Origin: a virus
Virus record (IMG/VR): IMGVR_UViG_3300020442_003391
Location: 1 to 40,764 of that record
Length of the DNA stretch: 40,764 nucleotides
Strand: one strand, 5' to 3'
Below, piece by piece: positions 3,202-34,936 of the stretch. Positions within the stretch are counted from its first letter, which is position 1, and each line of letters starts with the position of its first letter. A model generated the notes under the pieces. It saw only the letters and a program-made list of their open reading frames with translations, ran no database searches and was not told where the DNA came from. The translations under genes and the position numbers were made by a program.

Positions 3202-3230
3202 ATTATAGCTTAAAGTTTGTATAATGTCAA
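3202..3230 (-). promoter_or_regulatory. early sigma70-type promoter for gp47-gp46
   Basis: On the minus strand, TTGACA at 3230-3225 is followed by a 17-nt spacer and TATAAT at 3207-3202. Both hexamers match the bacterial housekeeping consensus exactly, at the optimal spacing. The -35 box contains the TGA stop codon of gp55. Transcription would begin near 3195, just ahead of the gp47 GTG start at 3181. Such promoters are read by unmodified host polymerase early in T4-like infections. Confidence 0.85.
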
Positions 3231-11748: not shown

Positions 11749-14700
11749 ATGTCATCTACCGACAGACAAAATAGATTGTTATTAGCTGAGGATTGGCGTA
11801 AAATTTACCAAAGTTTTAGAAACGCTGAGTTCAAAAGCTATGATTTTGATACCCTCAGAAGGGCTATGATTTCATATCTTAGAACTAACTATCCTGAAGA
11901 CTTTAACGATTACATCGAAACTTCAGAATACCTTGCTCTTATTGATATTATTGCATTCCTTGGGCAAAACATTGCATACAGAGTTGATCTTAACGCAAGA
12001 GAAAATTACTTAGAATTAGCTGAACGTAGAGAATCTGTTCTAAGGTTAGCAAGACTTTTATCTTATAATCCTAAACGTAATCAAGCCGCTAACGGACTTT
12101 TAAAGTTTGATACAATTTCTACTACAGAAAGCATTGTAGACAGCAATGGTACAAATCTCGCAGGACAAACTATTACTTGGAACGATCCATCTAACAGTAA
12201 TTGGGCTGAACAATTTACAAGAGTATTGAATGCAACATTACCTAGTAATAACATTATCGGTAAACCATCTAAGACGACTACGCTTAACGGAGTATTGACA
12301 CAGAGTTATAGAATGAATAGCTCTAGTTCAGATGTGCCGGTTTTTAGTTTTAGCAAAGGTGTAAACGGAATACCTACTCAGTTTGAAATTGTATCAACAG
12401 ATATAAACTTAGACAAATCTATAATAGAAGAAGAAATTCCATTACCTGGAAACCAAGTGTCATTTTTATACCGTGAAGATGGTAGAGGCAATGGAAGTAG
12501 CAACACAGGTTACTTCATGCACTTTAGACAAGGATCACTTAACAGTGGAGAATTTATTATTGATAATCCTTCTTCTAATCAAAGAATAAACATTGAAGCA
12601 AATAACATTAATGATTCTGATGTATGGTTGTATAAATTAGACCAAAACGGTAACATTGAAAAACTTTGGACAAAGGTAGATGCAATAGAAGGAAACAATG
12701 CAATTTACAATAGTCTTGCAAAAAGTATTAGAGATTTTTATGTAGTGCAAACTCGTAAAGATGATGAAATTACTTTTGTGTTTGCAGACGGAACTTTTGG
12801 AAACATACCAAACGGACCTTATAGAACTTTTTATAGACAAAGTGCAAACAGATCAATGCGTATTACTCCTGAAGATTTGACAGATATTAATTTAAGTATT
12901 GACTATGTTAGTGCAACAGGAAAACTTGAAACTCTTACAATGGGCTTAGAATTGAAAGATGTCGTTACTAATGCAAGTATTACTGAAACAAGTGCAAGCA
13001 TAAGAAACAATGCACCACAAACTTATTACACACAAAATAGAATGATTACAGGAGAGGATTATAATATTGCTCCTCTTACTTCAAATCAAGAAATTGTAAA
13101 AGTAAAATCATCTAACAGGATTTCAAGTGGTATAAGCAGATACTTTGATTTAAAAGATGTTACAGGAAAATATTCAAGTACAAACTTATATGCTTCAGAC
13201 GGAATAATTTATAGAGAACCGTATGAAGCAAAAAATTCTTTTACTTTTAGTAACCAAACAGATATCGAAGGACAGATAGAAAATTTAGTTTTGCCTATAA
13301 TCCAAAGCAGAGCAATTAGTAATTTCTATTTTGGAAATTATGCAAAAATTATTGTTAGTGATCTAAATGCAACCTGGACACAAAGTACAAAGTCAACTAA
13401 TCAATCTACCGGATTGTTGAAAAACACAAGTGGTACTCCTTATCAGGTAGGAGCATTTACCGGCGGTTCATTGAAATATGTTGAACCAGGAGCATTGTTG
13501 AAGTTTGTTGCACCTGCAGGTTTTTATTTTATAGGTGAAGGAGAGTTAACTAATGATGCTAATGCCAAAGGCTCAAGCACATACAAATGGGTGAAAGTAA
13601 TCAGCGTAGACGGTGCAGGAACAAATGTAAACAGTACAACAGGTGCAGGACCAATAGTGTTTAATGAAATACTACCAGCGAATAGTGTGCTTGAAGAAGT
13701 AAAACCTAAATTAGTGAAAGATATTACATCAGATGTAAGGTCGCAAATTATTGATCAGGTTTTTGCTTTTAAAACATTTGGGCTACGTTATGATCAAGTT
13801 AATAGAATTTGGCGTGTGATTATTAATGAAAACTTAAACATTTATGATTCTTTTAGTAATGGTAAGACAGGTGACGTAACAAATAACCAACTAGATGCAA
13901 GTTGGATATTACTATTCCAAACTAATGGTGAAAAATATACAGTAACAAATAGAGGATTGAGATATATTTTTGAAAGTGATAAGGAAATTTCATTTTACTA
14001 TGATGGTCAAAGTAAAATTTATGACTCAGCTACAGGACAACTTGTAAAAGATAAAATCAGTATTATGAATTTCAACACAAAACCAGACAGCTTGGAAAAC
14101 TTTAACAATGATGTTAATTGGGAAATTGTTAAAGAATATAGAAATGCCGACGGATACGTGAATAGTAAAAAAGTTGAAATTAGTTTCTTTGACCTAAACG
14201 ATGACGGATCACTTGATGATCCTGATATATTTGACAATGTTGTTGCTCCAGATACCAACAGTCTTTCCAAATATATTTTCTTGAAAAAGGAACTTACCGA
14301 TCAAGGATTTAACAAATACAATTATTATCCTGAAGGGTCTAAAATTATTGTCAAGGCAACGGAAATAGATATCGGTGCTTATACGCAGTATGAAAATGAT
14401 CCACAAATTTTCTACATTGTTGATCAAGGAAACTTTAAAATTTTATCAAATGGAGATATGAGTTTAACAAGTGATTATCTTGCTTATACTGGTAGAGCTG
14501 ATTTGAAATTCCATTATGTGCATAGTGCAAATGAAAGCAACAGGATAGATCCTAGTGTATCAAACATAATAGATGTGTACATGCTTACAAAATCTTATGA
14601 TAGTAGTTTTAGAAAATATCTTAAAGGTACAATAACAAATAAACCACTACCACCAAGCGTAGATGAATTGTTTCAACAATATGGACAAAATATAAACAAA

Positions 14701-15345
14701 ATAAAGAGTATCAGTGATGAAGTAATTTATCATCCAGCAAAGTATAAAATATTATTTGGAGACAAAGCAGATGAAAATCTGCAAGCAGTATTCAAAGTGG
14801 TAAAAAACACTGAGAACGTTGTTAACAATAACGATATTAAGGTAAGAGTAATTGCCGCTATAAACGGATATTTTGCTTTACAAAATTGGGATTTTGGAGA
14901 AACTTTCCATTTTACGGAAATGGCAACTTATGTAATGAATGCCTTAGCACCAGACTTACTAAATTTTATAATTGTTCCTAAACAAGGAACTTTATCTTTT
15001 GGTAGTCTGTATGAAATAAAAAGTGAAAACGATGAAATATTTGTAAGTGATGCAAAGGTGCAAGATGTAGAAATAATAGATTCTATTACTGCTTCACGTA
15101 TTCAAGCTACGGGCAGTGTAGTTTCTACTACAGCAACAACTAATACAGGAATACAAAGTCAAGCATTGACTGTAACCTCCACATCTGCTACAACAACCTC
15201 TACGTCAACATCTACTTCTACTTCTACTTCAACAAGTAGTAGCAGTGGATCTTCAGGATCAAGTGGTTCAGGCGGATCAGGATCAGGCGGATCAGGATCA
15301 GGCGGAGGAGGTAGTTCTGGCGGCGGTGGAGGCTACGGTTACTAA
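11749..15345 (+). CDS. gp6: baseplate wedge subunit gp6 (extended, with Ser/Thr/Gly tail)
   Basis: The 1198-residue protein begins with the conserved gp6/gpJ-type N-terminal region: FDTLRRAMISYLRTNYPEDF, SEYLALIDIIAFLGQNIAYR, ENYLELAERRESVLRLARLL. gp6 dimers form the inner ring of the baseplate wedge and hold gp25, gp53 and gp7. T4 gp6 is 660 residues, so this one is nearly twice as long; the extra length is mostly beta-rich sequence in the middle and C-terminal parts. Residues 1143-1198 form a low-complexity tail, first Ser/Thr, then Gly/Ser, ending GGGGGYGY. The stop overlaps the next start (TAATG), and the GGAGG within the Gly-coding run can serve as that gene's ribosome-binding site. A late promoter motif stands upstream at 11715. 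Confidence 0.88.
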   Translation: MSSTDRQNRLLLAEDWRKIYQSFRNAEFKSYDFDTLRRAMISYLRTNYPEDFNDYIETSEYLALIDIIAFLGQNIAYRVDLNARENYLELAERRESVLRLARLLSYNPKRNQAANGLLKFDTISTTESIVDSNGTNLAGQTITWNDPSNSNWAEQFTRVLNATLPSNNIIGKPSKTTTLNGVLTQSYRMNSSSSDVPVFSFSKGVNGIPTQFEIVSTDINLDKSIIEEEIPLPGNQVSFLYREDGRGNGSSNTGYFMHFRQGSLNSGEFIIDNPSSNQRINIEANNINDSDVWLYKLDQNGNIEKLWTKVDAIEGNNAIYNSLAKSIRDFYVVQTRKDDEITFVFADGTFGNIPNGPYRTFYRQSANRSMRITPEDLTDINLSIDYVSATGKLETLTMGLELKDVVTNASITETSASIRNNAPQTYYTQNRMITGEDYNIAPLTSNQEIVKVKSSNRISSGISRYFDLKDVTGKYSSTNLYASDGIIYREPYEAKNSFTFSNQTDIEGQIENLVLPIIQSRAISNFYFGNYAKIIVSDLNATWTQSTKSTNQSTGLLKNTSGTPYQVGAFTGGSLKYVEPGALLKFVAPAGFYFIGEGELTNDANAKGSSTYKWVKVISVDGAGTNVNSTTGAGPIVFNEILPANSVLEEVKPKLVKDITSDVRSQIIDQVFAFKTFGLRYDQVNRIWRVIINENLNIYDSFSNGKTGDVTNNQLDASWILLFQTNGEKYTVTNRGLRYIFESDKEISFYYDGQSKIYDSATGQLVKDKISIMNFNTKPDSLENFNNDVNWEIVKEYRNADGYVNSKKVEISFFDLNDDGSLDDPDIFDNVVAPDTNSLSKYIFLKKELTDQGFNKYNYYPEGSKIIVKATEIDIGAYTQYENDPQIFYIVDQGNFKILSNGDMSLTSDYLAYTGRADLKFHYVHSANESNRIDPSVSNIIDVYMLTKSYDSSFRKYLKGTITNKPLPPSVDELFQQYGQNINKIKSISDEVIYHPAKYKILFGDKADENLQAVFKVVKNTENVVNNNDIKVRVIAAINGYFALQNWDFGETFHFTEMATYVMNALAPDLLNFIIVPKQGTLSFGSLYEIKSENDEIFVSDAKVQDVEIIDSITASRIQATGSVVSTTATTNTGIQSQALTVTSTSATTTSTSTSTSTSTSTSSSSGSSGSSGSGGSGSGGSGSGGGGSSGGGGGYGY
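15175..15342 (+). repeat. low-complexity coding repeat (Ser/Thr then Gly/Ser tail of gp6)
   Basis: The last 56 codons of gp6 are short tandem repeats at DNA level: ACN/TCN codon alternation (tctact units), then repeated ggatcaggc units, then runs of GGN codons. The repeats could change length by slippage without breaking the frame as long as whole codons are gained or lost. The sequence differs clearly from the rest of gp6, which is not repetitive. Confidence 0.9.
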
Positions 15346-18300
15346 TGGCACAAGACGAAAAACCAATTCAAACAGGCAAAGATGAAAAAAGAGAAGTAGC
15401 ATCTCTTTTACCAAGATACTTTCGTACGTCTGCTAATAAAAAGTTTTTAAGTAGTACGCTAGATCAAATGATGCAACCTGGCGTCATTGAAAAGGTTGAC
15501 GGATTTATTGGTAGGAAAGATGCTAAAGCATTTAGTGCCGACGACAATTACGTTCCTGAAATAAGTTCAGACAGAGAAAACTATCAATTAGAACCTGTAG
15601 CTACCATTCAAAATAATATAGGCGAAACTATATTTTACAGAGATTATAGAGACTATGTAAATTCTGTTAAAATAAGAAATGCAGATACTACTAATCACAG
15701 CATTTTAAATGGGCAAGAATATTATGCTTGGGAGCCTCATATTGATTGGGATAAGTTTACTAACTTTAGAGAATATTATTGGCTTCCTACTGGACCTGAT
15801 AGCATTCCGGTATACGGAACAGCCAGAGATATAACCAGCACCTACAACGTTAAAAAACAGTCTAATGTTGATAACGATTCTTATGTCTTTTCAGATGAGA
15901 ATGCAATTTCTAATCCTACTCTTACGTTATACAAAGGCCAGACATATACGTTTGATATAGATGCGGAGGACATGCCTTTCACCATTAGGACTTCAGTGAA
16001 GGTGGATGATGATTCAAATTTATACAATACAGGAGTAAGTCAACAAAAAGTAGAAAAAGGAAAAGTAACCTGGGAAATAGATTTAGAAGCACCTGATACT
16101 TTATATTATGTAAATGGAAACGATATTGAAGCATCTGGATTAATAGTAATAAAAAATATTATAGATAATACATCTTTAGATGTAGGTGCTGATATCATTG
16201 GAAAGAAAACATATACAATGCAAAACGGTTATGCATTGTCCAATGGAATGAAAGTAGAATTTTTTGGCAATGTAACACCAGCAAGTTACGCAGAAGGAAA
16301 ATATTATGTAGAAGGTGTTGGAGATTCTATTAAATTAATTTCAGAAGGTGATTTAAGTGTAAGTGCAGGATACTTGGCTGATATCAAAACAGAATTTGAC
16401 GGCAATTCATTTGATGCAGTTCCTTTTGATGATGCTTTATCTTTTGCTAACAAAAAAGATTACATCTGTATTAACAAAGCATCTAAAGATAGAAACCAAT
16501 GGAGCAGATACAATTTATGGACACACAAGTCTGTGTTAGAAACGACTGCCGCTATAAACGGAACTCCTGTTGAAATTGATCAAAACTTTAGAGCAACAAG
16601 ACCTATTATTGAATTTGAAGCAGGATTAAAATTAGTTAACTTTGGTACAGAATCAAAAACGTCTGTTGATTTAGTTGACACTGTAACGAAAGATGTTTTT
16701 TCAGATATAGAAGGACAAGTAGGTTATTTTGTTGATGGAACTGAGCTTGTTACAGGAATGCGTGTTCTGTTTACAGCTGATCCAGATTCATTAGTCAACG
16801 GTAAAATTTATACAGTTACATTTATAAATCACAATGGTACAAATCAGATTGCACTTAAAGAAACAACAGATACAACACCATTAGAAAATCAAACGGTTCA
16901 AGTTAAATCAGGAACAAATTTCAAAGGTAAGGTATTTTGGTATAACGGCACCACTTGGAGACAAGGACAAGATAAAACAAGTGTAAACCAGCAACCGTTA
17001 TTTGATATGTACAACAATGAAGGTACATTGCTATCTGCGATTGATGGTAGCACATTTAAAGGTAATAAAATATTTTCTTATAAGCAAGGCGAAGGAACCA
17101 ATGATACAGAATTAGGATTTCCGTTATCTTACAGAACTATAGAAAATAGTGGAGATATCACGTTTGATTTCAATTTACTTAACGATATGTATCAATATGA
17201 TCAAGGAACAAATGTATTAAAAGTAAAAACTGATACTGCACTTTTAAGAAAGTACACAAATAGAACAACATTTACAAGTGTATCTGGTTGGAAAAAGGCT
17301 CCAACCAAATCAGAACAACCAGTAATTTTACAATATGTTACAGGTCCTAGAACAAATAATTTTATAATTGATTGTTATCAACGTAGTGGTGATTTAAATG
17401 ATTTAAAAATAAAAGTATATCTTGATAACAAAAGATGTTACGAAGAAACTGATTATACTATTTTTAGGCAAAACGGATATGCATACGTACAGTTTGTAAA
17501 AGATTTAGAACTGAAGCAAAGTGTAATAATAGAAACAAAGACAGCTACTCCAAAAAATAATAGAGGATACTATAAGTTTCCGATCAACCTAGAAAAAAAT
17601 CCTATGAATGAGAACGTGGTTGATTTTACTTTTGGAGAAGTTTTAGATCACGTCAACAGCATAGTTGATAACAATGACGACTTCACTGGTGTGTTTCCAG
17701 GAGTAGGAAATTTAAGAGATTTAGGACAAGTATCTCAATTTGGATTAAGATTTGTACAACATTCTGGACCAATTAATCTTGCATTATATAATCTTACAAC
17801 AAAAGATTACAACATGCCAAAAGCTATTCAGTTTTCTGGAAACGAATATATCAAATTCAAGAGAGAATTTCTTAGAATTGCAAATGAATTAGGATTTGAA
17901 GGAAGTGATAAAGTCCATGTTGATAAGATACTTTTAGAGCTTACAAAAACAAAAAATAAAAATGATGCATTTTATTTTAGTGACATGGTACCTTTTGGTG
18001 GCGATAATATCCAAGAATATGAAATAGAAGATTCAACACAAAATATTTTTAGTTTAACAAGAAGTGTATCTTTCACTGAGCTAAATGAAAATGCTTGTCT
18101 AATATACTTAGACGAAATGCAACTAATAAAAGACAAAGATTATGCAATTAGTACAGACGGTTTTATCAACATTACAAAACCTTTGGTTGCAGGACAGAAA
18201 GTAAAGATAGTAGAATACGAAACTACTGATGGTTGTTGGATACCACCAACTCCTACAAAACTAGGTTTGTATCCTAAATATGAACCAGAAATTTATCTTG

Positions 18301-21300
18301 ATGACACGTATATTAGTGCAGTTCCTGATAGTACAGGACCTTACAAAATTTATGGTATTGATTCTATAACAACCAAAGGATATAAAGACAAACTAGGTTG
18401 GTTCTATCCAGTGTTCACTGATGAAGTATCTGCTCAGGCTTATGATAGAGTAAATGGTGGTACAGGATTAGCCCATACGCATACTTTTAACGGTTACAAC
18501 AGAGTATTCTTCATGCCAAATTCTTCTATGAATCATGCTACAGGCGATACAACTGAGTTTACCGAATGGAATGCGGCACAACCAGTCTTACAAGGGCACG
18601 ACGGATCAATATGGAAATGTTTTGGTGATTATAGAGATAGACTCCTACTTGAATTTGAAAAAAGAATTTATAATAATTTAAAGCAAGATTACGATGAATC
18701 AATTGTTGACCTAGCTGATTTTATAGAATCAGACTTTAGATCAACAGGTTTTACAAGACAAAAAATTGCTAATGTAATCATAGCAGAGTTTAATACTTGG
18801 CTAGAAACAGTAGGTGTTCCTGATTATACAAAAAATGATGTATTCACAAGAGGAAATAGTTTTACTTACAATTACTCATACTTTGGCAATCCATATGATA
18901 AACCTTTGGCAGGTTTTTGGAGAGCAATTTACAAGGATCTATATAATACCGATAGACCTCATACACACCCTTGGGAATGTTTAGGTTTAAAGATCAAGCC
19001 TAGTTGGTTTGATACTGTATACGGACCTGCACCGTACACAAAAAATAACACACTGTTGTGGCAGGATTTGAGTAAAGGTATTGTTAGAGAACCTAATAAG
19101 AAGATTACGTATAGGAACAAATATAAAAATGCAGATATTTTAAAATATATTCCTGTTGATAAACAAGGAAATCTTGTTAGTCCTGCAGAAGTTGGATATG
19201 CAAGAGGCGGTTTAGATAGCACTTACGTATATGACTTTAAGTTCGGCGATGAAGGTCCAGTAGAAACTGCTTGGAGACGTAGTTCTCATTATCCTTTTGC
19301 TTTAGTTAGAGCTTGGAGTTTATTACAGCCAGCACAGTATTATGGCCTTGCTTGGGATAGAAGTAGAACTGTAAGAAATCTTGCAGGACAATTAGTTTAT
19401 AAAGATACCTCTAAAAGAATAGAACTATCACAGCTGGCATTTCCTAACAGTGCATCTGAAGAAACTCGTGTGCTTACAGCTGGACTTGTAAATTATATTC
19501 AAGGTTATCTATCAGCAAATGAAACATTACAATTTAAAGAATATAAAAACAATTTACAAAGTATAGAAAATAAGATCGGATCTAAAATTGGAGGATTCAC
19601 ACAGAAAAATAAATTTAAATTAATACTTGATAGTAGAACACCTACCAATGAAGGAAATATTTTTATTCCTGAAGAAAACTATGAAGTTATTTTAACAAAG
19701 AGTGTGCCAACCAATGTCCTTTCTTACAGTGGAATTATAATAGAAAAACTTCCGCAAGGGTTTAAAGTAAATGGATATGATAAAGACACACCAGTCTTTA
19801 GAACATTGCCGGTGATGAAAAAGGCAAATGATCCTGTCGTTAACATCGGTGGAGTAAGTGAAAATTTCTTAACCTGGACAACCGGAAAAGTTTATGAACC
19901 AGGACAAGTTGTTAGCTTTAATAGTGTATATTACAGAGTAAAGGTTGGACATACAGCCAGTGATAATTTTAATCCTGATAATTTCCAACAGATGGCAGAC
20001 CTTCCTACAGAAGGCGGAGCAAATGCTACTTTTGCAAATAGTTTTGACACAGTGCAATTTGATGTGCCGTACGGAACCGTATATACAGAAGTGCAAGATG
20101 TGGTAGATTTTATTTTAGGATACCAGCAGTACCTAAAACAAACTGGATTCTTATTTGAGACTTATAATCAAACCTTACAAGAAATAGAAGATTGGAAGTT
20201 AAGTGCCAAAGAGTATATGTTCTGGACAACACAAAACTGGGATAGTGGTGCTGTTTTAACATTAAGCCCTAGTGCTAGACAGATTGCTTTTAGTAATCCA
20301 TATGCAGTTGTAGATGACATTTACAATAATTTTTATGATTATAGTTTACTCAAGGCAGACGGAAAAAGATTGCTTGCTGATTTTGCAACCACAGAACGAG
20401 ACAATACCAACGACTTCGGAATATATGTAAAAAACACACAAGAAGGAATATACCATTTAAAAATTCCTACAATTCAAACAGAACATGCTATAGTTATAGA
20501 CAACGAAACTGTATTCAATGATAAAATTTATACAAGACCGCAAGGTTACAGACAGGAAAGAATTAAAGTAAAAGGATACAGAAGTGATGGATGGAACGGA
20601 GGATTAAATGTTCCTGGCTTTATATTTTCTGATTCTGTAATTAATGAATGGACTCAATGGCAAGATTACAAGATAGGAGATCTTGTCAAATACAAGCAAT
20701 ACTATTATGTTGCAAATAGGAACATAGCAGGAGCCGATAACTTTAACGACAGTGCTTATGTACGTTTAGGAGGCAAACCTGAATCTGCATTACTTCCTAA
20801 TTGGGATTACAAAGCAAAACAGTTTGAGGATTTCTACGATCTAGATTCTGATAATTTTGATGTTGAACAGCAAAAACTTGCACAGCATTTGACAGGATAT
20901 CAGAAAAGGAAATATTTAGAAAATATTATTCCTGATGATGTAAGCCAGTATAAATTTTATCAAGGCATGATACAGGATAGAGGTACCAAAAATGTTCTAA
21001 ATAAATTATTTGACAAATTAGGAAGTGCAAACAAAGATAGCATAGAATTCTTTGAAGAATGGGCTGTACGTGTAGGAAGATATGGCGCAACAGAAGGTGA
21101 TGACACATTTGAAGTTTTACTAGACGAACAAAATTATAGATTAGAACCACAGCCAGTAGAATTGGTCGATGTAGTAAATCCTAAAGATACTTCTTTAATA
21201 ATTGGTATTGATAGAAATAATGTTTATGTGAAGTCAAAAAATTATGATCATAAACCTTTACCAACAAAACATTTCAACGACGAAAACATTTTTGTTCCAT

Positions 21301-24300
21301 CGGCAGGTTATGTTAATCCATCAGATGTGTATACCAGTGTTTTAAATTACAATGATATATTGAATCAAAATATTGATACACTGCAAGCAGGACAGTATAT
21401 TTGGACAGCATTAGAAAAGAACCAAACAACTTGGTCAGTTTACAAGTATGTAGGAAGTGAATTTAAGATACAAAGTGTTGGAAAAAGTGAAAACAATGTA
21501 TTTAAGATTACGCTTAATTCAGAACCTAATTTTGAAGCTGGAGATATTATCGGCATCAAAGAAGTAGGAGACGAAAACAATGGCTTCTTTACTGTTAACA
21601 AAGTAGAATTAAATGTGTTATCATGTAACTCTGTAGAAGATGTTCCTCAAACTGAGGAAGACAAATATGATGGAGAAGGATTCTTAACATATTTCAAAAA
21701 AGTAAGAGTTGCAAATTTAACCGAAGCTAACGCAAACATACAAGAATCAGATGTAACACCGTTTACTATTGTTGGCGATTTACCAACAGGACAGACTATC
21801 TGGGTTGATGATGACGATACAGGTAAATGGACAGTATTAAAAAGTAAACAGGTATATGAATTAAAGCCAAACATTATTAACACTACTGCTGGATTACTAG
21901 ATAGCACACAAAAGGATTTTGGTTCTAGCGTATCGGTAACAGAAAACAACAACACAGTGGCTATTACTGCTCCTAAAGATTTAAATGGTAGTGTTTACAT
22001 CTTTACTAGACCAAGTGACAATACTGAAGTAGGACTTTTACAGCAGATAGATGAACAGGCATTTTTGTATGATAGTAATGGCGGATTTGGTACAAGTGCC
22101 GCTTTGAGTCCAGACGGAAAATATCTGGCAATTGGATCACCCAATGCATCAAATGTAAAATCTAAACTTAAAGGTGATTACGTAAACACAAAAACATACG
22201 CAACTGGTGATATTGTTTTATATAGTGATCAGCTATGGAGAGCAAAACGTCCTATAGAGGCAGATGCTGTACAAAATTTCCAAAGTCACGCTTCAAATCA
22301 ACAAAGTATTTCAGATGATTATGACACTACATCAAGTTCTTATCCTGAAACAGTCTTTATGATGCGTGGAAATTATGCAATGCCTAATTCTGCAACTGAT
22401 CATATTTTGATACGTGCAGAAAAAGAACAATGGGAAGGTACAAAACCAGGAGACATATTAACATTAAAATGGAATCAATTCACATCATTAGCTACAGCAG
22501 GAGTACAACCTTTTAATGGCGATGCCGTTATGAACCAAAGTTTCATAAATGGACAACACGTTATTGCTGGTAAGGTTCAAATGGTTGTTGAAATTATTTC
22601 TGCATTAGCCACACCAGAAGTAGGAGATGAAATTACTACTGAAACTGCTAGAGCCAATGTTCAATATAGATTTATTGATAATGACAATAGATTAATTTTA
22701 TACCTAAACAACGTTAACGGAAATTTATCAACGTCAGGCACAATAGCACAAAACAATATTACTATTGGTACTTACACAGCCATTAATAATATAAATGATA
22801 ATTATCATGCAGGTTGGTGGTATATTAATGTAGGACAATCATTTAATTCAACAAATATAAAAGAAACTAAACCAAATCTTGTAGTTACAGATATTACATT
22901 AGAAGGAGGCACACCTCCAACTCCTATATTCAACAATATTTTAGATACGAAACAAAATGAAGATATAATATCTAATCCTACAAGGGTAAGTTACTATGGT
23001 GTTTTAAGTCACCAGCAAGGAGCAACTGAGATAAACATTCTTGATGATAGATGGTTTATCAGAACAGATGCAACTCAATATGCACAATTACAAGTTGGTA
23101 ATAAAATTAGAACATGGATTTCGGACACTTACGTAAGCGGAACAAGGCAAGATCCTTCAGCAATAGGTCTTACATACGACTATGTAAACAACACTGAACA
23201 CACAATTTTAGATAAATGGAATGGTTGGGTTGATGTTAGGCTAACTAACTTTGATTTAAATGGAGATCCGTTCTTACCTAATGTAGGAGATACAGTCACG
23301 GACACAACTACAGGATCAACTGCTGAAGTTGCTTACATACAAAGACAGTTTGCGGTTGCAAGATTTTTCCTTAAAAATAGAAATGGCACCTGGTCGAAAG
23401 GAAGTGATTTCGGCGAAGCAAGTAATGTAACATTTTTTGAAAATGATTCTACAGTACGAACTGTAGGACCTATCAATAATACCCATGTTGAAAATAATGT
23501 ATCAGGTGGATTAGTAGTAATTAGAAATGCAACTAATATTGCAATACCAGCTGGAAATAGTTACGTACAGGATACAGAGTATTGGATTTATGCTTCTAGC
23601 AACATAGATGGCATAACAGATAGTGCAAATCCTCCAGGACCTTTAAATTTAGATTGGATAAGGGTATACAACATTCCGTTAAGTGCCGCAGGAGAACCAG
23701 CCGCAGAAAATATGGATGCACAAGGTGCTTTTGCAATTTACGAAAAAAGAGGATCAACATATCAATTACAAAATTATTTCACTGTGCCTAATGCCGCTTC
23801 TGGAAGGCGTTTAGGAAATAAAGTAGAGTTTAGAGAAACAGGAGCAGATTCTTACAAACTTTTTGTACATGCGAAAGGTGACGGAACTGAGCATAACCAA
23901 GGTAGAATTTATATAATTGAGAAAAACGCTACTGAAGATTGGTCTTTAGGAATTGATAGAAACTTTAGAGGCTTCCATAGAACATCAGCAACATACTTTG
24001 AAGGAGAGCTTGTTAGAGTAGGAAACGAGATTTACGAAGCAAATACAAATCTTGTACCTGGTACATTTAATCCAGCATTGTGGACACAAAAAACAAGTGG
24101 TTTGGATTTATTAGGATATGTTCCTAATGATACTAATTTTTCATTAAACACAAGCACTTTAGAACAAAACAAATTAGAAGCTTTCGGAGAAAACTTTGAT
24201 GTAGATAAAAAAGGTGATGTCTTAATTGCTTCAACTATGTACACAAGCACATACGAATTAGATAGCTCTGATGGATCTCTTTTATATCCACCTGGCGAAG

Positions 24301-27300
24301 CAGTTGATAGTTCTTTACCAAATGTAAAAGTCGTAGTGTATAGAAGAGTAAATGACCAATATACATATAGTCAAATACTTGAACCTTTTAATCAGTTTGA
24401 AGATTTTGGTAATTCAATAGCAATTTCAAATGACGGTAAAAAAATTGCAGTAGGTGCACCTCTAAATAGCGACCTTACACCAGGCGGCGGCTGTGTATAC
24501 ATATATGTGCAAAATGGCACTACGTTCTCATATAGACAAACCATAAGACCGAGAGATACAAAACCTAATACTCAGTTTGGACATGAAATAGATTTTGATG
24601 GAAATACATTGGCAATTTGTTCTAGAGGAGGAGATTTAGAAACTGTAACAACATTTGATAATTCTCAAACTATCTTTGATAACAAAGCTACACAATTTAA
24701 GTTGATTGACAATGATAGCGGATTAGTAAGCATTTATGAAACAATTAATGATACTTTACTTTACGCACAGGATTTTGCTTATAATGTTGATACAGCAGAT
24801 TTTGGTAACATAATGAAAGTCATGGGCAATCATGTATATTTAGGTTTACCTAAACAGCAAGTGTCTCTTACAAATAGTATAGACAGAGGTGTTGTTGCAG
24901 AATATAGAAAACCACAAGGTGTACAAAATTGGTCAGTTGCAAGAAGTCCTGTAGATCCAGTTGATGTATCAAAATTAAAAGGTGTATATCTGTTTAATAA
25001 AACAGACAACAGTCTTGTAACTTATCTAGATTATATTGATCCATTACAAGGAAAAATTTCTGGCATAGCTGATCAAGAAATAGATTTTAAAACAAGTTAC
25101 GATCCTGCAAGTTACAGTGTAAGCAGTGAAGCAGGAATTGTAGCACAGGCTTTAGACTACACAGCAGAAAAATGGATAGGAAAAGTATGGTGGGATATAG
25201 GAAGTGCCAAATTCATTAATTTCCATCAAGGTGATATTATTGAGTCGACACAAAACTTTAATAAATTATTTCCTGGATCAACAGTGGACGTTTATGAATG
25301 GGTTGAATCAACCTTATTGCCAAGTGAATGGGATACACAAGCTGGTACTGAATCAGGTTTAACAAAGGGTATTAGTGGAACAACAAAATATGGTGATAAC
25401 GCATATAGTGTCAGGAGAAAATACGACACAGCAACACAAACCTTTACCACTTATTACTATTATTGGGTAAAAGATAAGACAACATTACCTGCAATAGAAA
25501 CAAGACGTACAAGTGGCTTTAACATTGCACAAGCTATATCAGATCCTGCAACAGCAGGCACAAGATTTTTAGCACCATTAGGATCAAATAGATTTAGTTT
25601 ATATAATTGTCAAGCATTTATGCAAGATAAAAATGTAGGTGTAAGTTTTAATTGGTGGACTATAGAAAATCAAGAACAAAATACTCATAACGAATATCAA
25701 GTTATTTCCGATGGATTAGCAACAAGTATTCCTAACGCTGATATTGAACAAAAATGGTATGACAGTTTAGTAGGCTTTGATAAAAATGATAGACCTGTAC
25801 CTGATATCAATTTACCAATAAGACAAAAGTATGGAAATTTGAATGAACCTAGGCAAAGTTGGTTTATTAATAAAACAGAAGCAAGAAAACAGTTTATTGA
25901 ACGTGTAAACAAAACACTTAAAACTGAACTTATTGTTGATGATAAGGACTTAACTGATTTAACAAAAATAGATCCGCTACCTACAGTAGCAGAAGGAAGA
26001 TTTGATACAACAAGTGATACTTTTGCTGAACTTTCCTTTGTAAGTGTAGCAAGGCTCAGAAGAGCAAGTGTTTCATTAGAAGTTGAAAATGGAAATATTA
26101 TCAACGTGTTAATTAACGATGGCGGTACAGGTTATATAAATCCACCAACTTATACTATATCTGATTCACGCGGAACAGGTGCAGAAATATCTTTCAGCTT
26201 AGATGCAAACGGATCTATAAACAATGCAACAATTATTAATGCAGGACAAAATTATACTTCTAATGTTTCGATAAGCATGAGACAGTTTGGTGTCCTTGTT
26301 AAAAATGATGAAACTGTTGGAGGTAAGTGGGCTATATTCTCATGGACAGGATCAGAATGGCAAAGATCATTAACGCAAGCCTATGATGCAAATATGTACT
26401 GGAAATATATTGACTGGTATAAAGCAGGATACAATAAGTTTACACCTATTTCATATCAAATTAATTCTAGCTATGAACTTTCTGGATTAGACGATAGCAT
26501 TGGCGATGTAGTCAAAATTGCTAATGTTGGTACAGGTGGCTGGTTATTACTACAGAAAAAAGATAATCAAGACACGTCAGACTATACAGTAAATTATGAT
26601 ACTATAGGTAGACAAAATGGAACGATAGAGTTTTTAAATTCTTTATATGACACTTCAAGTGAAAACATTGCTTACGATGGTGCAAGTTTTGATAAAATAT
26701 TTTATGATACAGAGCCAGTAGAAGAATTTAGAATTGTAATCAATACAATTAAGAATAAACTGTTTATAGACGATCTTGCAAATAAATGGAACGAATTATT
26801 TTTTGCAAGTTTAAGATATGTGTTAGCTGAACAACCAAACGTAGATTGGATGTTTAAAACAAGTTTCATAAAAGCAAAACATAACATTGGTGAGTTAAAA
26901 CAAAAAGTAACATTCCAAAACGATAATTTAGCAAGTTATCAAAATTACATTGAAGAAGTCAAACCATATAAAACTAAGATACGTGAATATCTAAGTTCCT
27001 ATGAAAAAATTGATCCTTCTTCTTCTGTGATAACAGATTTCGATTTACCTCCGGTTTACAATGCTGATGCAGGAAAGATTATTCCGCAAAGTGTGCAAAT
27101 TTTAGATGATACTATTGTATCAGGTATATCTGAAATTACAAAGTTTCCTAGTAAACATTGGGCAGACAACGTTGGTTTTGAACTTACAGATTTAACTATT
27201 GCTGATCCTGGAAGTGGTTATACAATAGCACCAGAAATTAAAATTACAGGTGGCGGCGGCACAGGAGCTCAAGCCCAAGCATTCATTGGAACAAATGGAA

Positions 27301-30300
27301 GACTTACATCTATTGAGGTTACCAAACCTGGAAGTGGTTATCTATCACAGCCTAAGATTGAAATTATAGGATCAATTGAAGACGGTGGAACAGCAGGTAG
27401 ATTAAGTCCTGTATTAGGCAAAGGTAAAGCTAGAGCTATGCATGTGGTTTGCAAGTTTGATAGGGTAACTGGTGCGTACCTGTTTAGCCAATTAACTGAA
27501 ACACAAACTTTTGTCAGTACTATTAATCAACAAATATTTGATTTGAAATGGCCTGTGCAATTGAAATCAACAAGGATTTCTGTAACGGTTGATGGATTAG
27601 ATAGCTTAAGAAGTGAATATAAATTTGAAAATGTAAAAGATACTACAAAAGATCATACAAGATTTAAAGGAAGAATAACATTTACTAATCCGCTAAAAGC
27701 AGGACAAAATATTGTAGTGTCTTATGATAAGGCACCTGACTTGTTACAAGCACAGGATAGAATTAATCTTTACTATAATCCTGCAACAGGAATGTATGGT
27801 AACGACCTAGGTCAACTGTTAGACGGAATTGACTATGGAGGAGTTGAAGTAAGTAGCTACAGCTTTGGATCAGGTACTGGTTGGGATTCCGATGGTTGGT
27901 TTACAGATACATATGATACATTTGACACAGAGTTTGATGACGAAATATTCCAAATGGATGGAAGCACTGAAGTATTCACATTAAGTAAACCTCTAGCAAA
28001 TGGCGTTGTGTATAATGTGTATCTAAACGGAACAAGAATTGATGATCCTAACTTTGGCACAAACGCACAAACTAACACCAATGCAGTGTTACAAAGCATA
28101 GTCGGTGCAGGCCAAACAACAATAACAATTACAAATGATGTGCAAAAATTTGTAGCAAATGATGTTGTGGTGTTTAGAAAAACAACATCTGATGGAGCGT
28201 TTTTACCTGACCCGAGATCCTATGATACAATTTTAAGTGGGGGAGATTTACAATTCTTCACAGCAAAAGGTGTTAATCCAGAAGAAATCGTTGTAGATGG
28301 AGATGGGTTTGTAACTCCAACAACATCTAAAGGACCAGAAGAACAAGTTCCAGGGCAAGTTTTAGATACTGTTGATATCAAAGTATTCCATAGACAAGGA
28401 AAAGGAGGAAGTGTCCTATCCAGTAATTCATATAACGCAGACGGAACACAGGTTGAATTTAGTTTTGGAATCCAACCACAAAACGAAGAAGGATTAATTG
28501 TACGTCTTGATGATATTATTCAAAACAAAAACACTTACAGAGTAGATTATAGACTAAAGAAAGTAAAATTTTTAAATGCTCCGGGAGCAAGTACATTTGT
28601 AAACATCATTAGCGTAAGCGGTAATGGTGAAAACATAGTTGAGTTTGAAGAATTTATAGGTGATGGATGCTCTGTACAATACGTAACTAAAGCAAGATGG
28701 TCACCAAACCTTGATTACTATGCAACAGTAGATGGTAAAGTAGTTGAATCTGTTTTAATCGCAAGCGATGATAGTGGTGCTGAAGATACAAAAGCTGTAC
28801 TATTCTTTGGTAGTCCGCCAGCGGATCAAAGCGTTATTAATTTTGCAGTATACAGCAAAGCTGATAGCTTTAGTAAAATTGAAACACAAGAATTTGAAGG
28901 AGATGGTTCCACACTTAATTTCACTTTAGCTAAAACACCTTATAGTGCATTACCTAACAGCCATAACGTAATTGTAAAACAAGGAAACAGAATTTTAAAT
29001 CCTGGTTACAATCAACAATTTATTGTAGAGGACGGTGTAAAAGAATACTTCTTAGAAATATGGCAACGCCCAATAGGTAGTTTTGATAATACTGATGTAC
29101 TTGTCCTTTTAAACGGTAAAGTGTTATTGATTGCTACTGAATACAATATAAGACCTGCTAACAGCTCTTTGATACTTGAACCAGGTATAGGACAGCCAGG
29201 GGATAAACTAGAAGTCTTTATCAGAACAGATGGTGAATATGCTTTTGGAAGCGTTCAAGTTATCAATAATAATAACACATGGGTAGATAGTGGAAATGTA
29301 TTGCAATTAAAGACTGCACCAGGCAATGGCGAAAAACTTACTGTATACACATTTAATAAACACGATTACATGGACTTTGAAAGACTCAACTATGATGTTG
29401 TTGCGAGATCAACGTTAAGTGTTGGATCAGATGATCATATACAGTATAATCATTTAAAAGCTGGTTTGGTAAAATTAAGAAATCCAGCAATTGACGCACA
29501 GTTTGTTTGGGTAATAGTAAACGGTATATTAAAAACACCAAGTGTAGATTACAAATTGACAGATGATAAGAAATTTATTAAGTATAACGGATCATTTGCA
29601 GATAATGACGTAATTGAATTGATACAGTTTAGTGCATCAGGACCAACTGAACCTAAATTTGGATTTAGTCAATTCAAAGATATCTTGAACAGAAATATTT
29701 ACAAACGATTAGGTGACATTGCACCTTTAAAACTTGCAAAAGATCTTCTTGTTACAGATAAAGAAATTGTTTTAGATGATGCAAGCACAATTAGCTCTCC
29801 TGATAAGAATAGCAGTATTCCAGGGATTGTGTTTATAAACGGTGAAAGAATTGAATTCTTAATCAGACAAGGCAACACTCTAAGACAGTTACAAAGAGCT
29901 ACATTCGGCACAGGCGCACCTGAAGTTCATTTTGCAGGAAGTGATGTGTATAATCAAGGAATTCAACAGACTGCACCGTATGCTGATAAAACTATTACAA
30001 ATACCCTTGTAGGAGACGGATCAACCAGTGTATTTGAGTTAGGATTTACTCCAAAATCTGTAAATGAATTTGAAATATTTGTAGCTGGTAAGCGTCTAAG
30101 AAAGACGGCAATACAGTTATTTGATGCAACAAAAGATCAGGATAGTCCAGAAGCAGATGTTAATGCTCCAGCAGAATTTTCAGTCACAGGAAATACACCA
30201 TTTGTAACTTTGTTAAATACACCAGCATCGGGTGTTAAGATACAAATAATACGTAGACAGGGCACTTTATGGGCAGATCCTGGAGTTTCACTTAATGATT

Positions 30301-30356
30301 CGGAAAGTTTGGTAGCACGTTTCTTTAAGGCAGAAAAGGTGGAGCTACCAAAATAA
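15345..30356 (+). CDS. giant 5003-residue baseplate/adhesion structural protein in the gp7/gp8 position
   Basis: One uninterrupted 15-kb frame. The N-terminus (FLSSTLDQMMQPGVIEKVDG, YAWEPHIDWDKF, REYYWLPTGP) recalls large structural proteins of marine T4-like phages found where T4 has wedge gene 7 (1032 aa). The rest is a mosaic. Four modules near 1508-1552, 1766-1810, 2275-2320 and 2877-2920 resemble CBM5/12-type carbohydrate-binding domains (for example YEPGQVVSFNSVYYRV). FG-GAP-like propeller repeats at about 2184-3190 (FGNSIAISNDGKKIAVGAP) are split by about 540 residues. Two GSGY/GGGGTGA modules lie at about 3587-3646 and 3945-4010. Repeated DGST-type fibre modules start near 4201, 4362, 4517 and 4888. 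It probably joins the wedge to a large receptor-binding structure; this role is inferred. No signal peptide, membrane segment or enzyme motif was recognised. Its start overlaps the gp6 stop, and its own stop is part of a late promoter motif. Confidence 0.75.
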   Translation: MAQDEKPIQTGKDEKREVASLLPRYFRTSANKKFLSSTLDQMMQPGVIEKVDGFIGRKDAKAFSADDNYVPEISSDRENYQLEPVATIQNNIGETIFYRDYRDYVNSVKIRNADTTNHSILNGQEYYAWEPHIDWDKFTNFREYYWLPTGPDSIPVYGTARDITSTYNVKKQSNVDNDSYVFSDENAISNPTLTLYKGQTYTFDIDAEDMPFTIRTSVKVDDDSNLYNTGVSQQKVEKGKVTWEIDLEAPDTLYYVNGNDIEASGLIVIKNIIDNTSLDVGADIIGKKTYTMQNGYALSNGMKVEFFGNVTPASYAEGKYYVEGVGDSIKLISEGDLSVSAGYLADIKTEFDGNSFDAVPFDDALSFANKKDYICINKASKDRNQWSRYNLWTHKSVLETTAAINGTPVEIDQNFRATRPIIEFEAGLKLVNFGTESKTSVDLVDTVTKDVFSDIEGQVGYFVDGTELVTGMRVLFTADPDSLVNGKIYTVTFINHNGTNQIALKETTDTTPLENQTVQVKSGTNFKGKVFWYNGTTWRQGQDKTSVNQQPLFDMYNNEGTLLSAIDGSTFKGNKIFSYKQGEGTNDTELGFPLSYRTIENSGDITFDFNLLNDMYQYDQGTNVLKVKTDTALLRKYTNRTTFTSVSGWKKAPTKSEQPVILQYVTGPRTNNFIIDCYQRSGDLNDLKIKVYLDNKRCYEETDYTIFRQNGYAYVQFVKDLELKQSVIIETKTATPKNNRGYYKFPINLEKNPMNENVVDFTFGEVLDHVNSIVDNNDDFTGVFPGVGNLRDLGQVSQFGLRFVQHSGPINLALYNLTTKDYNMPKAIQFSGNEYIKFKREFLRIANELGFEGSDKVHVDKILLELTKTKNKNDAFYFSDMVPFGGDNIQEYEIEDSTQNIFSLTRSVSFTELNENACLIYLDEMQLIKDKDYAISTDGFINITKPLVAGQKVKIVEYETTDGCWIPPTPTKLGLYPKYEPEIYLDDTYISAVPDSTGPYKIYGIDSITTKGYKDKLGWFYPVFTDEVSAQAYDRVNGGTGLAHTHTFNGYNRVFFMPNSSMNHATGDTTEFTEWNAAQPVLQGHDGSIWKCFGDYRDRLLLEFEKRIYNNLKQDYDESIVDLADFIESDFRSTGFTRQKIANVIIAEFNTWLETVGVPDYTKNDVFTRGNSFTYNYSYFGNPYDKPLAGFWRAIYKDLYNTDRPHTHPWECLGLKIKPSWFDTVYGPAPYTKNNTLLWQDLSKGIVREPNKKITYRNKYKNADILKYIPVDKQGNLVSPAEVGYARGGLDSTYVYDFKFGDEGPVETAWRRSSHYPFALVRAWSLLQPAQYYGLAWDRSRTVRNLAGQLVYKDTSKRIELSQLAFPNSASEETRVLTAGLVNYIQGYLSANETLQFKEYKNNLQSIENKIGSKIGGFTQKNKFKLILDSRTPTNEGNIFIPEENYEVILTKSVPTNVLSYSGIIIEKLPQGFKVNGYDKDTPVFRTLPVMKKANDPVVNIGGVSENFLTWTTGKVYEPGQVVSFNSVYYRVKVGHTASDNFNPDNFQQMADLPTEGGANATFANSFDTVQFDVPYGTVYTEVQDVVDFILGYQQYLKQTGFLFETYNQTLQEIEDWKLSAKEYMFWTTQNWDSGAVLTLSPSARQIAFSNPYAVVDDIYNNFYDYSLLKADGKRLLADFATTERDNTNDFGIYVKNTQEGIYHLKIPTIQTEHAIVIDNETVFNDKIYTRPQGYRQERIKVKGYRSDGWNGGLNVPGFIFSDSVINEWTQWQDYKIGDLVKYKQYYYVANRNIAGADNFNDSAYVRLGGKPESALLPNWDYKAKQFEDFYDLDSDNFDVEQQKLAQHLTGYQKRKYLENIIPDDVSQYKFYQGMIQDRGTKNVLNKLFDKLGSANKDSIEFFEEWAVRVGRYGATEGDDTFEVLLDEQNYRLEPQPVELVDVVNPKDTSLIIGIDRNNVYVKSKNYDHKPLPTKHFNDENIFVPSAGYVNPSDVYTSVLNYNDILNQNIDTLQAGQYIWTALEKNQTTWSVYKYVGSEFKIQSVGKSENNVFKITLNSEPNFEAGDIIGIKEVGDENNGFFTVNKVELNVLSCNSVEDVPQTEEDKYDGEGFLTYFKKVRVANLTEANANIQESDVTPFTIVGDLPTGQTIWVDDDDTGKWTVLKSKQVYELKPNIINTTAGLLDSTQKDFGSSVSVTENNNTVAITAPKDLNGSVYIFTRPSDNTEVGLLQQIDEQAFLYDSNGGFGTSAALSPDGKYLAIGSPNASNVKSKLKGDYVNTKTYATGDIVLYSDQLWRAKRPIEADAVQNFQSHASNQQSISDDYDTTSSSYPETVFMMRGNYAMPNSATDHILIRAEKEQWEGTKPGDILTLKWNQFTSLATAGVQPFNGDAVMNQSFINGQHVIAGKVQMVVEIISALATPEVGDEITTETARANVQYRFIDNDNRLILYLNNVNGNLSTSGTIAQNNITIGTYTAINNINDNYHAGWWYINVGQSFNSTNIKETKPNLVVTDITLEGGTPPTPIFNNILDTKQNEDIISNPTRVSYYGVLSHQQGATEINILDDRWFIRTDATQYAQLQVGNKIRTWISDTYVSGTRQDPSAIGLTYDYVNNTEHTILDKWNGWVDVRLTNFDLNGDPFLPNVGDTVTDTTTGSTAEVAYIQRQFAVARFFLKNRNGTWSKGSDFGEASNVTFFENDSTVRTVGPINNTHVENNVSGGLVVIRNATNIAIPAGNSYVQDTEYWIYASSNIDGITDSANPPGPLNLDWIRVYNIPLSAAGEPAAENMDAQGAFAIYEKRGSTYQLQNYFTVPNAASGRRLGNKVEFRETGADSYKLFVHAKGDGTEHNQGRIYIIEKNATEDWSLGIDRNFRGFHRTSATYFEGELVRVGNEIYEANTNLVPGTFNPALWTQKTSGLDLLGYVPNDTNFSLNTSTLEQNKLEAFGENFDVDKKGDVLIASTMYTSTYELDSSDGSLLYPPGEAVDSSLPNVKVVVYRRVNDQYTYSQILEPFNQFEDFGNSIAISNDGKKIAVGAPLNSDLTPGGGCVYIYVQNGTTFSYRQTIRPRDTKPNTQFGHEIDFDGNTLAICSRGGDLETVTTFDNSQTIFDNKATQFKLIDNDSGLVSIYETINDTLLYAQDFAYNVDTADFGNIMKVMGNHVYLGLPKQQVSLTNSIDRGVVAEYRKPQGVQNWSVARSPVDPVDVSKLKGVYLFNKTDNSLVTYLDYIDPLQGKISGIADQEIDFKTSYDPASYSVSSEAGIVAQALDYTAEKWIGKVWWDIGSAKFINFHQGDIIESTQNFNKLFPGSTVDVYEWVESTLLPSEWDTQAGTESGLTKGISGTTKYGDNAYSVRRKYDTATQTFTTYYYYWVKDKTTLPAIETRRTSGFNIAQAISDPATAGTRFLAPLGSNRFSLYNCQAFMQDKNVGVSFNWWTIENQEQNTHNEYQVISDGLATSIPNADIEQKWYDSLVGFDKNDRPVPDINLPIRQKYGNLNEPRQSWFINKTEARKQFIERVNKTLKTELIVDDKDLTDLTKIDPLPTVAEGRFDTTSDTFAELSFVSVARLRRASVSLEVENGNIINVLINDGGTGYINPPTYTISDSRGTGAEISFSLDANGSINNATIINAGQNYTSNVSISMRQFGVLVKNDETVGGKWAIFSWTGSEWQRSLTQAYDANMYWKYIDWYKAGYNKFTPISYQINSSYELSGLDDSIGDVVKIANVGTGGWLLLQKKDNQDTSDYTVNYDTIGRQNGTIEFLNSLYDTSSENIAYDGASFDKIFYDTEPVEEFRIVINTIKNKLFIDDLANKWNELFFASLRYVLAEQPNVDWMFKTSFIKAKHNIGELKQKVTFQNDNLASYQNYIEEVKPYKTKIREYLSSYEKIDPSSSVITDFDLPPVYNADAGKIIPQSVQILDDTIVSGISEITKFPSKHWADNVGFELTDLTIADPGSGYTIAPEIKITGGGGTGAQAQAFIGTNGRLTSIEVTKPGSGYLSQPKIEIIGSIEDGGTAGRLSPVLGKGKARAMHVVCKFDRVTGAYLFSQLTETQTFVSTINQQIFDLKWPVQLKSTRISVTVDGLDSLRSEYKFENVKDTTKDHTRFKGRITFTNPLKAGQNIVVSYDKAPDLLQAQDRINLYYNPATGMYGNDLGQLLDGIDYGGVEVSSYSFGSGTGWDSDGWFTDTYDTFDTEFDDEIFQMDGSTEVFTLSKPLANGVVYNVYLNGTRIDDPNFGTNAQTNTNAVLQSIVGAGQTTITITNDVQKFVANDVVVFRKTTSDGAFLPDPRSYDTILSGGDLQFFTAKGVNPEEIVVDGDGFVTPTTSKGPEEQVPGQVLDTVDIKVFHRQGKGGSVLSSNSYNADGTQVEFSFGIQPQNEEGLIVRLDDIIQNKNTYRVDYRLKKVKFLNAPGASTFVNIISVSGNGENIVEFEEFIGDGCSVQYVTKARWSPNLDYYATVDGKVVESVLIASDDSGAEDTKAVLFFGSPPADQSVINFAVYSKADSFSKIETQEFEGDGSTLNFTLAKTPYSALPNSHNVIVKQGNRILNPGYNQQFIVEDGVKEYFLEIWQRPIGSFDNTDVLVLLNGKVLLIATEYNIRPANSSLILEPGIGQPGDKLEVFIRTDGEYAFGSVQVINNNNTWVDSGNVLQLKTAPGNGEKLTVYTFNKHDYMDFERLNYDVVARSTLSVGSDDHIQYNHLKAGLVKLRNPAIDAQFVWVIVNGILKTPSVDYKLTDDKKFIKYNGSFADNDVIELIQFSASGPTEPKFGFSQFKDILNRNIYKRLGDIAPLKLAKDLLVTDKEIVLDDASTISSPDKNSSIPGIVFINGERIEFLIRQGNTLRQLQRATFGTGAPEVHFAGSDVYNQGIQQTAPYADKTITNTLVGDGSTSVFELGFTPKSVNEFEIFVAGKRLRKTAIQLFDATKDQDSPEADVNAPAEFSVTGNTPFVTLLNTPASGVKIQIIRRQGTLWADPGVSLNDSESLVARFFKAEKVELPK

Positions 30357-30377: not shown

Positions 30378-30989
30378 ATGATCGATAATTTAAAAGAACA
30401 AAACGGAGTTTTACTCCAAGGACATATAAAAATTCATAACCCTGAAACAGGTGAAATATTAGTGAATAAGCGTAACGCAATTCACTATGAAAACATGAGT
30501 ATATCTTTAGCGGAAAGTTTGGCAAACGCTGGAGAAGGATTTATCTATCAGATGGCATTTGGTAACGGTGGTACAAGTATCGATCCTACAGGTATTATTA
30601 CCTATCTAACACCAAACTCAACTGGTACAAATGCAAGTTTGTACAACCAAACATATATTAAGGTTGTAGATGACAGAAGCGTTAACAACACAGACCCTGC
30701 TCGTAATAAGATAGAATCTAGACATGTAAGCGGAACAAACTATACTGATATTCTTGTTAGCTGTTTGCTTGATTACGGAGAGCCACAAGGACAAGATGCT
30801 ATTGATAATGCTACAAACTCAAATAGTTTATATGTGTTTGATGAATTAGGTTTAGTAAGTTACAGTCCATCAGGGCAAGGAAGACTGTTGACTCACGTAA
30901 TTTTCCACCCAGTACAAAAGAGTTTGAATCGTCTGGTACAGATTGATTATACTGTTAGAGTACAAAGTTTATCAGGATTTAATGAATAA
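30378..30989 (+). CDS. conserved virion structural protein
   Basis: The 203-residue protein has a pattern I recognise as conserved among marine T4-like phages after the baseplate genes: GHIKIHNPETGEILVNKRNA, IHYENMSISLAESLANAGEG, FIYQMAFGNGGTSIDPTG, YVFDELGL and VIFHPVQKSLNRLVQIDYT. It is beta-rich and has no enzyme or membrane features. Position between the giant protein and the fibre genes suggests a connector or fibre-attachment role, in the place of T4 gp9/gp10; that is inference only. It has its own late promoter motif and ribosome-binding site, and its stop overlaps the next start (TAATG). Confidence 0.7.
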   Translation: MIDNLKEQNGVLLQGHIKIHNPETGEILVNKRNAIHYENMSISLAESLANAGEGFIYQMAFGNGGTSIDPTGIITYLTPNSTGTNASLYNQTYIKVVDDRSVNNTDPARNKIESRHVSGTNYTDILVSCLLDYGEPQGQDAIDNATNSNSLYVFDELGLVSYSPSGQGRLLTHVIFHPVQKSLNRLVQIDYTVRVQSLSGFNE

Positions 30990-34905: not shown

Positions 34906-34908
34906 ATA
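34901..34908 (+). promoter_or_regulatory. late promoter, perfect T4 consensus (TATAAATA)
   Basis: TATAAATA is identical to the T4 late promoter element. Its central TAA is the stop codon of the preceding gene. The next ATG is at 34937, with AGGGG (34925-34929) between them as ribosome-binding site. It is the best-matching late promoter I saw in the window. Confidence 0.75.
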
Positions 34909-34936
34909 CATGTAACACACGATTAGGGGTTAATAA

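Follow-up and report, generated by a model that had tools for sequence, protein, structure and literature searches.

A 5003-residue giant protein at the gp7 position of a marine jumbo phage joins a conserved scaffold to an integrin-like propeller and sugar-binding-like modules

Introduction

According to the part of the AlgoCIS report drawn on here, re-engineering and the binding of fibres are concentrated in the gp7-like region, a hotspot for both, and CBMs can be part of wedge proteins (PMC8894135). The gp7 orthologue of XM1, gp17, is given as 242 aa in the corresponding portion of its description (PMC10457771). A survey of huge phages reported proteins of up to 7694 aa, some of which are tentatively structural (PMC7162821). 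One family of giant phage proteins is already catalogued as PHROG 10938 (“virion structural protein”); although hundreds of jumbo-phage contigs from the environment encode a member, the only labels given are “virion structural” or “hypothetical.”

We analyzed a stretch of viral DNA of 40,764 nucleotides (IMG/VR record IMGVR_UViG_3300020442_003391, hereafter the window) that encodes a member of this family, hereafter the giant; all features described below lie on the plus strand. The window, a 40.8-kb record classed as “linear,” covers only part of a jumbo-phage genome. The “compact phage genome” of the initial annotation therefore does not hold: a relative with 66% identity across the whole giant lies on a contig of 261.8 kb, and the isolate relatives are mostly phages of 284–490 kb.

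The Giant Gene and Its Neighborhood

The gene (15345..30356) starts with ATG and encodes 5003 aa (560.7 kDa, pI 4.8), which is exactly the single intact frame that had been annotated, and its ratio of 4.85 to T4 gp7 (1032 aa) agrees with the earlier estimate of about fivefold. It is designated here as a giant virion protein and putative wedge protein at the gp7 position, judging from the open reading frame, the PHROG 10938 match, and synteny with PA5oct, Atu_ph07, RaK2, and SCTP-2. The remaining five frames across the same interval contain 201–647 stops, so that the open frame of the giant is not due to chance. Essentially the same product is encoded on a second, independent IMG/VR contig (L006), and this near-identical contig together with 41 homologues of the same length rules out an assembly or frameshift artefact. 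The giant is a genuine virion protein encoded by a marine jumbo phage, neither artefactual nor unique.

Profile matches give the order, from left to right in the window, gp53, a structural protein, gp5, PAAR, gp25, gp6, the giant, a 203-aa protein, and three fibre-like proteins. The wider gene order (gp46-gp47-sigma-...-gp53-X-gp5-PAAR-gp25-gp6-giant-fibres) is the same in PA5oct except that the latter has no PAAR gene; at the left, both have recombination nuclease, SbcD-like, and sigma genes. The gp7/gp8 gene position proposed earlier was borne out, the giant lying directly after gp25 and gp6. The gp25-like sheath initiator (11251..11685) matches PF04965 (E 1.4e-10) and phrog_261. The gp6-like baseplate wedge protein (11749..15345, 1198 aa) matches phrog_10646 (E 1.3e-290) and phrog_219, the T4 gp6 family (E 1.6e-19), and ends one base into the giant, whose start overlaps the gp6 stop codon by 1 base (TAATG).

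The gp6-like protein is almost double T4 gp6 in size, and its C-terminal end (~15130–15342), just before the giant, is a low-complexity Ser/Thr stretch followed by a Gly/Ser tail (~60–70 residues). In Salicola phage SCTP-2, the gene preceding the giant (gene 141; L005 2624–11914) encodes 3096 aa, so the gp6 position is enlarged there too. The gp5-like hub protein of the window (8201–10945) has a gp5 trimer domain and a C-terminal GH19 chitinase-like lysozyme part, which scores below the Pfam cut-off.

Downstream of the giant are three adjacent fibre-like genes (30989..36406), recognized by PF07484 (E 2.2e-15), N-terminal alignment, and PHROG. The first (30989–33070) has the Collar domain and the PHROG tail protein, collar, and fibre matches, the second occupies 33070–34905, and the third (34937–36406) has a weak Peptidase_G2-like end. 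Their N-terminus of ~100 residues is homologous and their distal parts differ, as if one attachment site served three fibres.

Distribution, Conservation, and Presence in Virions

The PHROG 10938 profile matched three stretches of the giant (E 1.6e-105, 1.2e-138, and 2.4e-85), and the match covers most of the chain. Block B2 of the protein (see below) matched 60 isolate records, nearly all of them phages of 284–490 kb, and a homologue is found in PA5oct, RaK2, Atu_ph07, CBB, 121Q, SCTP-2, and others. In IMG/VR, a single scan found 249 relatives and an alignment-based scan found at least 569 stretches. The attribution to one marine phage lineage was too narrow, because the family occurs in jumbo phages of Pseudomonas, Klebsiella, E. 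coli, Agrobacterium, Salicola, Vibrio, and others, and because comparable giants occupy this position in cyanomyoviruses. A homologue is also present on eight contigs of bacterial metagenome bins, which are probably co-binned phage. Giant homologues nearly always adjoin a gp6-sized gene: among the homologues with ≥3 kb of upstream DNA, 162 of 165 are preceded by an ORF of >700 aa ending within 250 nt.

In the near lineage, 41 complete homologues measure 4513–5082 aa (mean 4956, s.d. 89), and the giants of distant relatives have 2608–5343 aa. Strong selection on the giant, as suggested initially, is supported by dN/dS values across whole genes of 0.03–0.25 in all pairs counted (Nei–Gojobori method; the most distant pairs have high dS, and the value of 0.25 belongs to a pair with one copy seemingly truncated), and dN/dS is low in every block. 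The giant of L058, a near-lineage homologue (4513 aa), ends ~500 residues early, with a tail altered compared with its close relative L055 (tail dN/dS 0.46), which is possibly a C-terminal truncation or frameshift.

In relatives, mass spectrometry detected the protein in virions, contrary to the refuting condition of the initial annotation. The record of PA5oct gp355 carries the note ESI-MS/MS, and the portions of the reports used here give phAPEC6 gp245 (381.9 kDa; PMC7247149) and CBB_236 (PMC5259590) as virion proteins; gp245 of phAPEC6, a 121Q-like phage, was assigned to the family by position and mass. Virion peptide coverage of the latter two is 7.6–7.7% in those portions (PMC7247149, PMC5259590), a figure that would fit a large protein of low copy number but is no measure of that number.

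Scaffold Blocks and Variable Slot

As judged from alignments, the family is built of three collinear scaffold blocks, B1, B2, and B3, with a slot between B2 and B3 whose content and length vary among relatives. B1 (residues 1–1000; 15345..18344), the conserved N-terminal scaffold, is part of the PHROG 10938 match, and its alignable part (~residues 14–990) keeps its collinear place in every one of the complete distant homologues listed. Profiles gave no known fold for B1 and no gp7 or gp8 match. Residues 173–344 (15861–16376) form a module that is also present in cyanophage tail-fibre proteins (e.g., of P-SSM2 and P-TIM68). B2 (residues 1064–2067; 18534..21545) begins straight after B1 and is the most widely conserved block in alignments. 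Its AF2 model (residues 1081–1960) reached a pLDDT of 81.3; the 50 best matches listed in a PDB fold search with this model included CBMs only and no gp7, and a BFVD search returned mainly its own family and no gp7. B3 (residues 3195–3900; 24927..27044), the conserved scaffold after the slot, was identified by blastp to PA5oct, RaK2, SCTP-2, and Atu_ph07 and is found in every complete homologue listed; its structure was modelled in the homologue L169. The C-terminal tail (residues 3901–5003; 27045..30353) contains a GxGY pair (3944–4030) and a weak T7-fibre-N-like stretch; its segment 4767–4858 is common to the PA5oct giant (43%), and the tail length in relatives is 44–1365 aa. No solved PDB homologue was found by sequence for either the window protein or the RaK2 giant.

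The length of the slot varies across the family from 70 to ~1400 aa, and B1, B2, and B3 are conserved. RaK2 has ~70 aa, PA5oct and SCTP-2 have 90–390 aa, and marine members reach ~1400 aa (a few raw lengths were negative owing to stray profile matches from repeat modules). Its content depends on the lineage: FG-GAP repeats occur in several marine members, L186 has an E1_FCCH-like stretch, and the slots of PA5oct, SCTP-2, and L111 contained nothing recognizable. It is also the least conserved part in the near lineage (identity of 0.31–0.47 per 100 residues vs. ~0.5–0.7 in the scaffold). Diversifying selection on the slot was not seen at short range, dN/dS being merely slightly above that of the scaffold.

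In the window giant, the slot (residues ~2163–3230; 21831..25034) holds an FG-GAP (integrin-alpha-type) beta-propeller interrupted by inserts, as found by Pfam, Foldseek, and hmmsearch. The giant matches Pfam FG-GAP_2 with E 4.8e-14 (52.7 bits, cut-off 23), and hmmsearch gave integrin alpha-4 with E 4.7e-10. A compact homologue, L169, has the propeller without the extra inserts, and its AF2 model (pLDDT 78.7) matches integrin-alpha headpieces in Foldseek (E 9e-12; TM-score by target length ~0.6, up to ~0.66). The propeller claimed in the initial annotation is supported by the above-cut-off FG-GAP_2 match and by the integrin-alpha fold of the L169 model. Two inserts lie inside the propeller: residues 2274–2789 (22164..23711), which are absent from L169 and begin with CBM-like module C, and residues 2868–2929 (23946..24131), a 62-residue insertion relative to L169 that carries CBM-like module D, recognized by its motif. 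The chain of the giant thus appears, from these comparisons of sequence, to have grown by nested insertion of domains.

A motif scan and alignment located four CBM5/12-like modules in the giant, at ~1508, 1766, 2278, and 2876. Module A (residues 1508–1556; 19866..20012) is the sole one above the cut-off of PF02839 (29 bits, cut-off 26.2) and also matches PDB chitin-binding domains (E 1.6e-5) and their fold (Foldseek prob 1.00). The matches of modules B, C, and D to CBM5/12 are weaker; module C (residues 2278–2325) scored 24 bits, below the cut-off, and module B (residues 1766–1814; 20640..20786), found by motif scan and alignment, is missing from RaK2/PA5oct-type homologues, where the alignment has a gap. 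Modules A and B lie within B2, and some relatives are without them. The sugar-binding-like modules noted earlier are supported by the above-cut-off Pfam match and by chitin-binding folds, and the CBM5/12-like modules of the giant may bind glycans. Structure prediction in segments, which had been proposed earlier, supported the propeller (in the L169 model) and the CBM folds; for the B2 model, no gp7 was among the 50 best PDB matches listed.

Relationship to gp7

A GxGY glycine-rich repeat module is found in B3 (residues 3575–3647; 26067..26285) as a 73-residue insertion relative to L169; the same module is scattered in the cyanomyovirus gp7 giants and inserted in cyanomyovirus gp8. The matches of the giant to PHROG 438, 708, 2885, 460, 701, and 1922, several of which bear the name “baseplate wedge,” align to the GxGY module (~3580–3650 and 3946–4030). 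Because they reflect this promiscuous module, they are no evidence for a wedge protein or a fused gp8. A gp8 fused into the giant (phrog_438/2885/708 matches) was ruled out on the same ground; the phrog_438 match spans profile positions ~175–331, not the N- and C-terminal gp8 parts matched by T4 gp8. It should be kept in mind that PHROG “wedge” matches on such giants can stem from a promiscuous repeat module.

The “wedge-like N-terminal sequence” of the initial annotation was found by no profile, and the sole wedge-like signal, which is weak, is internal (1847–1902). Neither hmmsearch nor hhalign gave a direct profile match to T4 gp7 in any segment of the giant, and T4 gp7 homology of the N-terminus was not found by profile comparison. 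Residues 2411–2460 aligned with T4 gp7 777–829 (E 0.008 before correction for ten segments), and this was set aside as chance because it lies in the variable slot. No other recognizable gp7 (phrog_964, phrog_17744) was found in the complete genomes of PA5oct, RaK2, Atu_ph07, and SCTP-2, and no gp8 outside the repeat-module matches.

The internal signal is a candidate gp7 core-bundle motif (residues 1820–1902; 20802..21050), helical, LTGYQKRKYLENI...YQGMIQDRGTKNVLNKLF, detected by hhalign with cyanomyovirus gp7. Residues 1847–1902 match the N-terminus of the cyanomyovirus giant gp7 weakly (28–37%), and the same cyanomyovirus segment matches T4 gp7 726–760 at 95–96%. The core motif scored 30–32, compared with ≤25.7 in 60 column shuffles and ≤16.5 in all other segments of B2. 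Residues ~4795–4857 of the giant outscore this motif when aligned with another, beta-rich stretch of the cyanomyovirus N-terminus, so the core-motif signal is suggestive only. The B2 model shows helices in this region at low confidence (pLDDT about 37–76). Gene order, the lack of another gp7 in complete relatives, and the weak core-motif match are together suggestive of a gp7 assignment. We think there is a good probability that the giant works in place of gp7, and we do not file it as a proven member of the gp7 family.

Proposed Role and Alternatives

We consider it rather probable that the giant is the gp7-position baseplate wedge subunit of a T4-related marine jumbo phage, enlarged by nested inserted modules. 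One copy per wedge would join the gp6 dimer via the short helical core at ~1820–1900, and the long N-terminal blocks B1 and B2, together with B3, would make up a large scaffold that extends radially. An FG-GAP propeller of the seven-bladed integrin-alpha type fills the B2–B3 slot, and loops of both propeller and scaffold accommodate the CBM5/12-like and GxGY modules. In their exposed position, the propeller and the CBM-like modules would most probably contact glycans or proteins of the host surface, or serve as docking sites for the separate fibres, close to the baseplate. That baseplate wedge and receptor-binding apparatus are fused in one chain, as the initial annotation suggested, is unproven, and three separate fibre-like genes lie just downstream. 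As a tentative extension, possible but short of likely, jumbo wedges of the gp7 position may be modular scaffolds with one cargo slot between B2 and B3, which grow as CBM in propeller in wedge and use the propeller in host recognition apart from the fibres.

The giant might instead be a fibre or whisker (hair) protein that lies beside gp6 outside the wedge, with an adhesive propeller and CBMs. Its fibre-like modules would suit such a role, as would the promiscuous module (residues 173–344) common to cyanophage tail fibres, and tail hairs, whose composition is unknown, are described on the relatives CBB and phAPEC6 in the portions of the reports used here. B1, B2, and B3 are, however, conserved in members with or without the added modules, RaK2-type members retain the scaffold without the propeller, the complete genomes have no other gp7 candidate, and a peptide coverage of 7.6–7.7% seems unlike that of an abundant hair; we therefore regard this explanation as unlikely. 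A little more weight, though still not much, may be given to a wedge protein whose propeller and CBM-like inserts are purely structural (spacers, fibre docking, or a cage) and never touch the host. By analogy, in the part of the AlgoCIS report drawn on here, tail fibres dock on the gp7-like part of Alg12, and two CBMs of Alg11 build the spike cage (PMC8894135); separate fibre genes follow the giant, and the insert is not evolving fast, with dN/dS merely slightly higher. On the other hand, over longer evolutionary spans no part is less conserved than the slot (0.31–0.47 vs. ~0.5–0.7), and its content varies by lineage, both of which are expected of host-facing parts.

Large size and a multi-module build would also fit a polyprotein that is processed post-translationally to give several separate structural proteins. 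We find this very improbable, because cutting would break the collinear blocks and the inserts nested inside folds, and because phAPEC6 gp245 and CBB_236 are each given as one virion protein, with no processing reported in the portions of the sources used here, a result with which cutting would still be compatible. In the reading of the giant as an enlarged wedge subunit, the gp7 placement, the mapped scaffold, and the variable slot provide a testable model of jumbo-phage baseplate enlargement and diversification.

Comparison with Known Systems

The closest proteins are the PHROG 10938 members RaK2 ORF070w, PA5oct gp355, Atu_ph07 gp180, CBB_236, and 121Q gene 582, which follow gp6 and have the collinear B1-B2-slot-B3-tail arrangement, with 3323–4449 aa vs. 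5003 aa in the window and ~25–32% identity. RaK2-type giants have about 3330 aa. Unlike the window giant, RaK2 has a slot of ~70 aa without a propeller, and CBM modules B–D were not seen in the RaK2 and PA5oct types.

The giant gp7 proteins of cyanomyoviruses (“baseplate wedge initiator/subunit”), namely those of S-CAM9 (3884 aa), S-SCSM2R (5172 aa), S-CAM8 (~6167 aa), and S-T4 (~4749 aa), resemble the window giant in their location after gp25-gp6, giant size, GxGY module, and weak core motif. They differ from it in that the gp7 core is N-terminal and no B1, B2, or B3 blocks were detected; S-CAM9 and S-SCSM2R retain a separate gp8 gene. T4 gp7 occupies the same gene position as the giant and is presumably likewise the partner of the gp6 dimer, but there is no detectable direct sequence similarity between them. 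Alg12 and Alg11 of AlgoCIS and gp17 of XM1, likened here by their descriptions, show a gp7-like subunit of widely differing size that binds fibres or spikes (PMC8894135, PMC10457771); they are far smaller than the giant, and the portions of these descriptions used here mention no FG-GAP propeller. We found no description of the B1-B2-slot-B3 scheme, or of an integrin-type propeller nested with CBMs, in the open-licence literature searched. Giant proteins at the gp7 position are not new; what stands out in the window giant is the nested insertion of an integrin-like propeller and sugar-binding-like modules.
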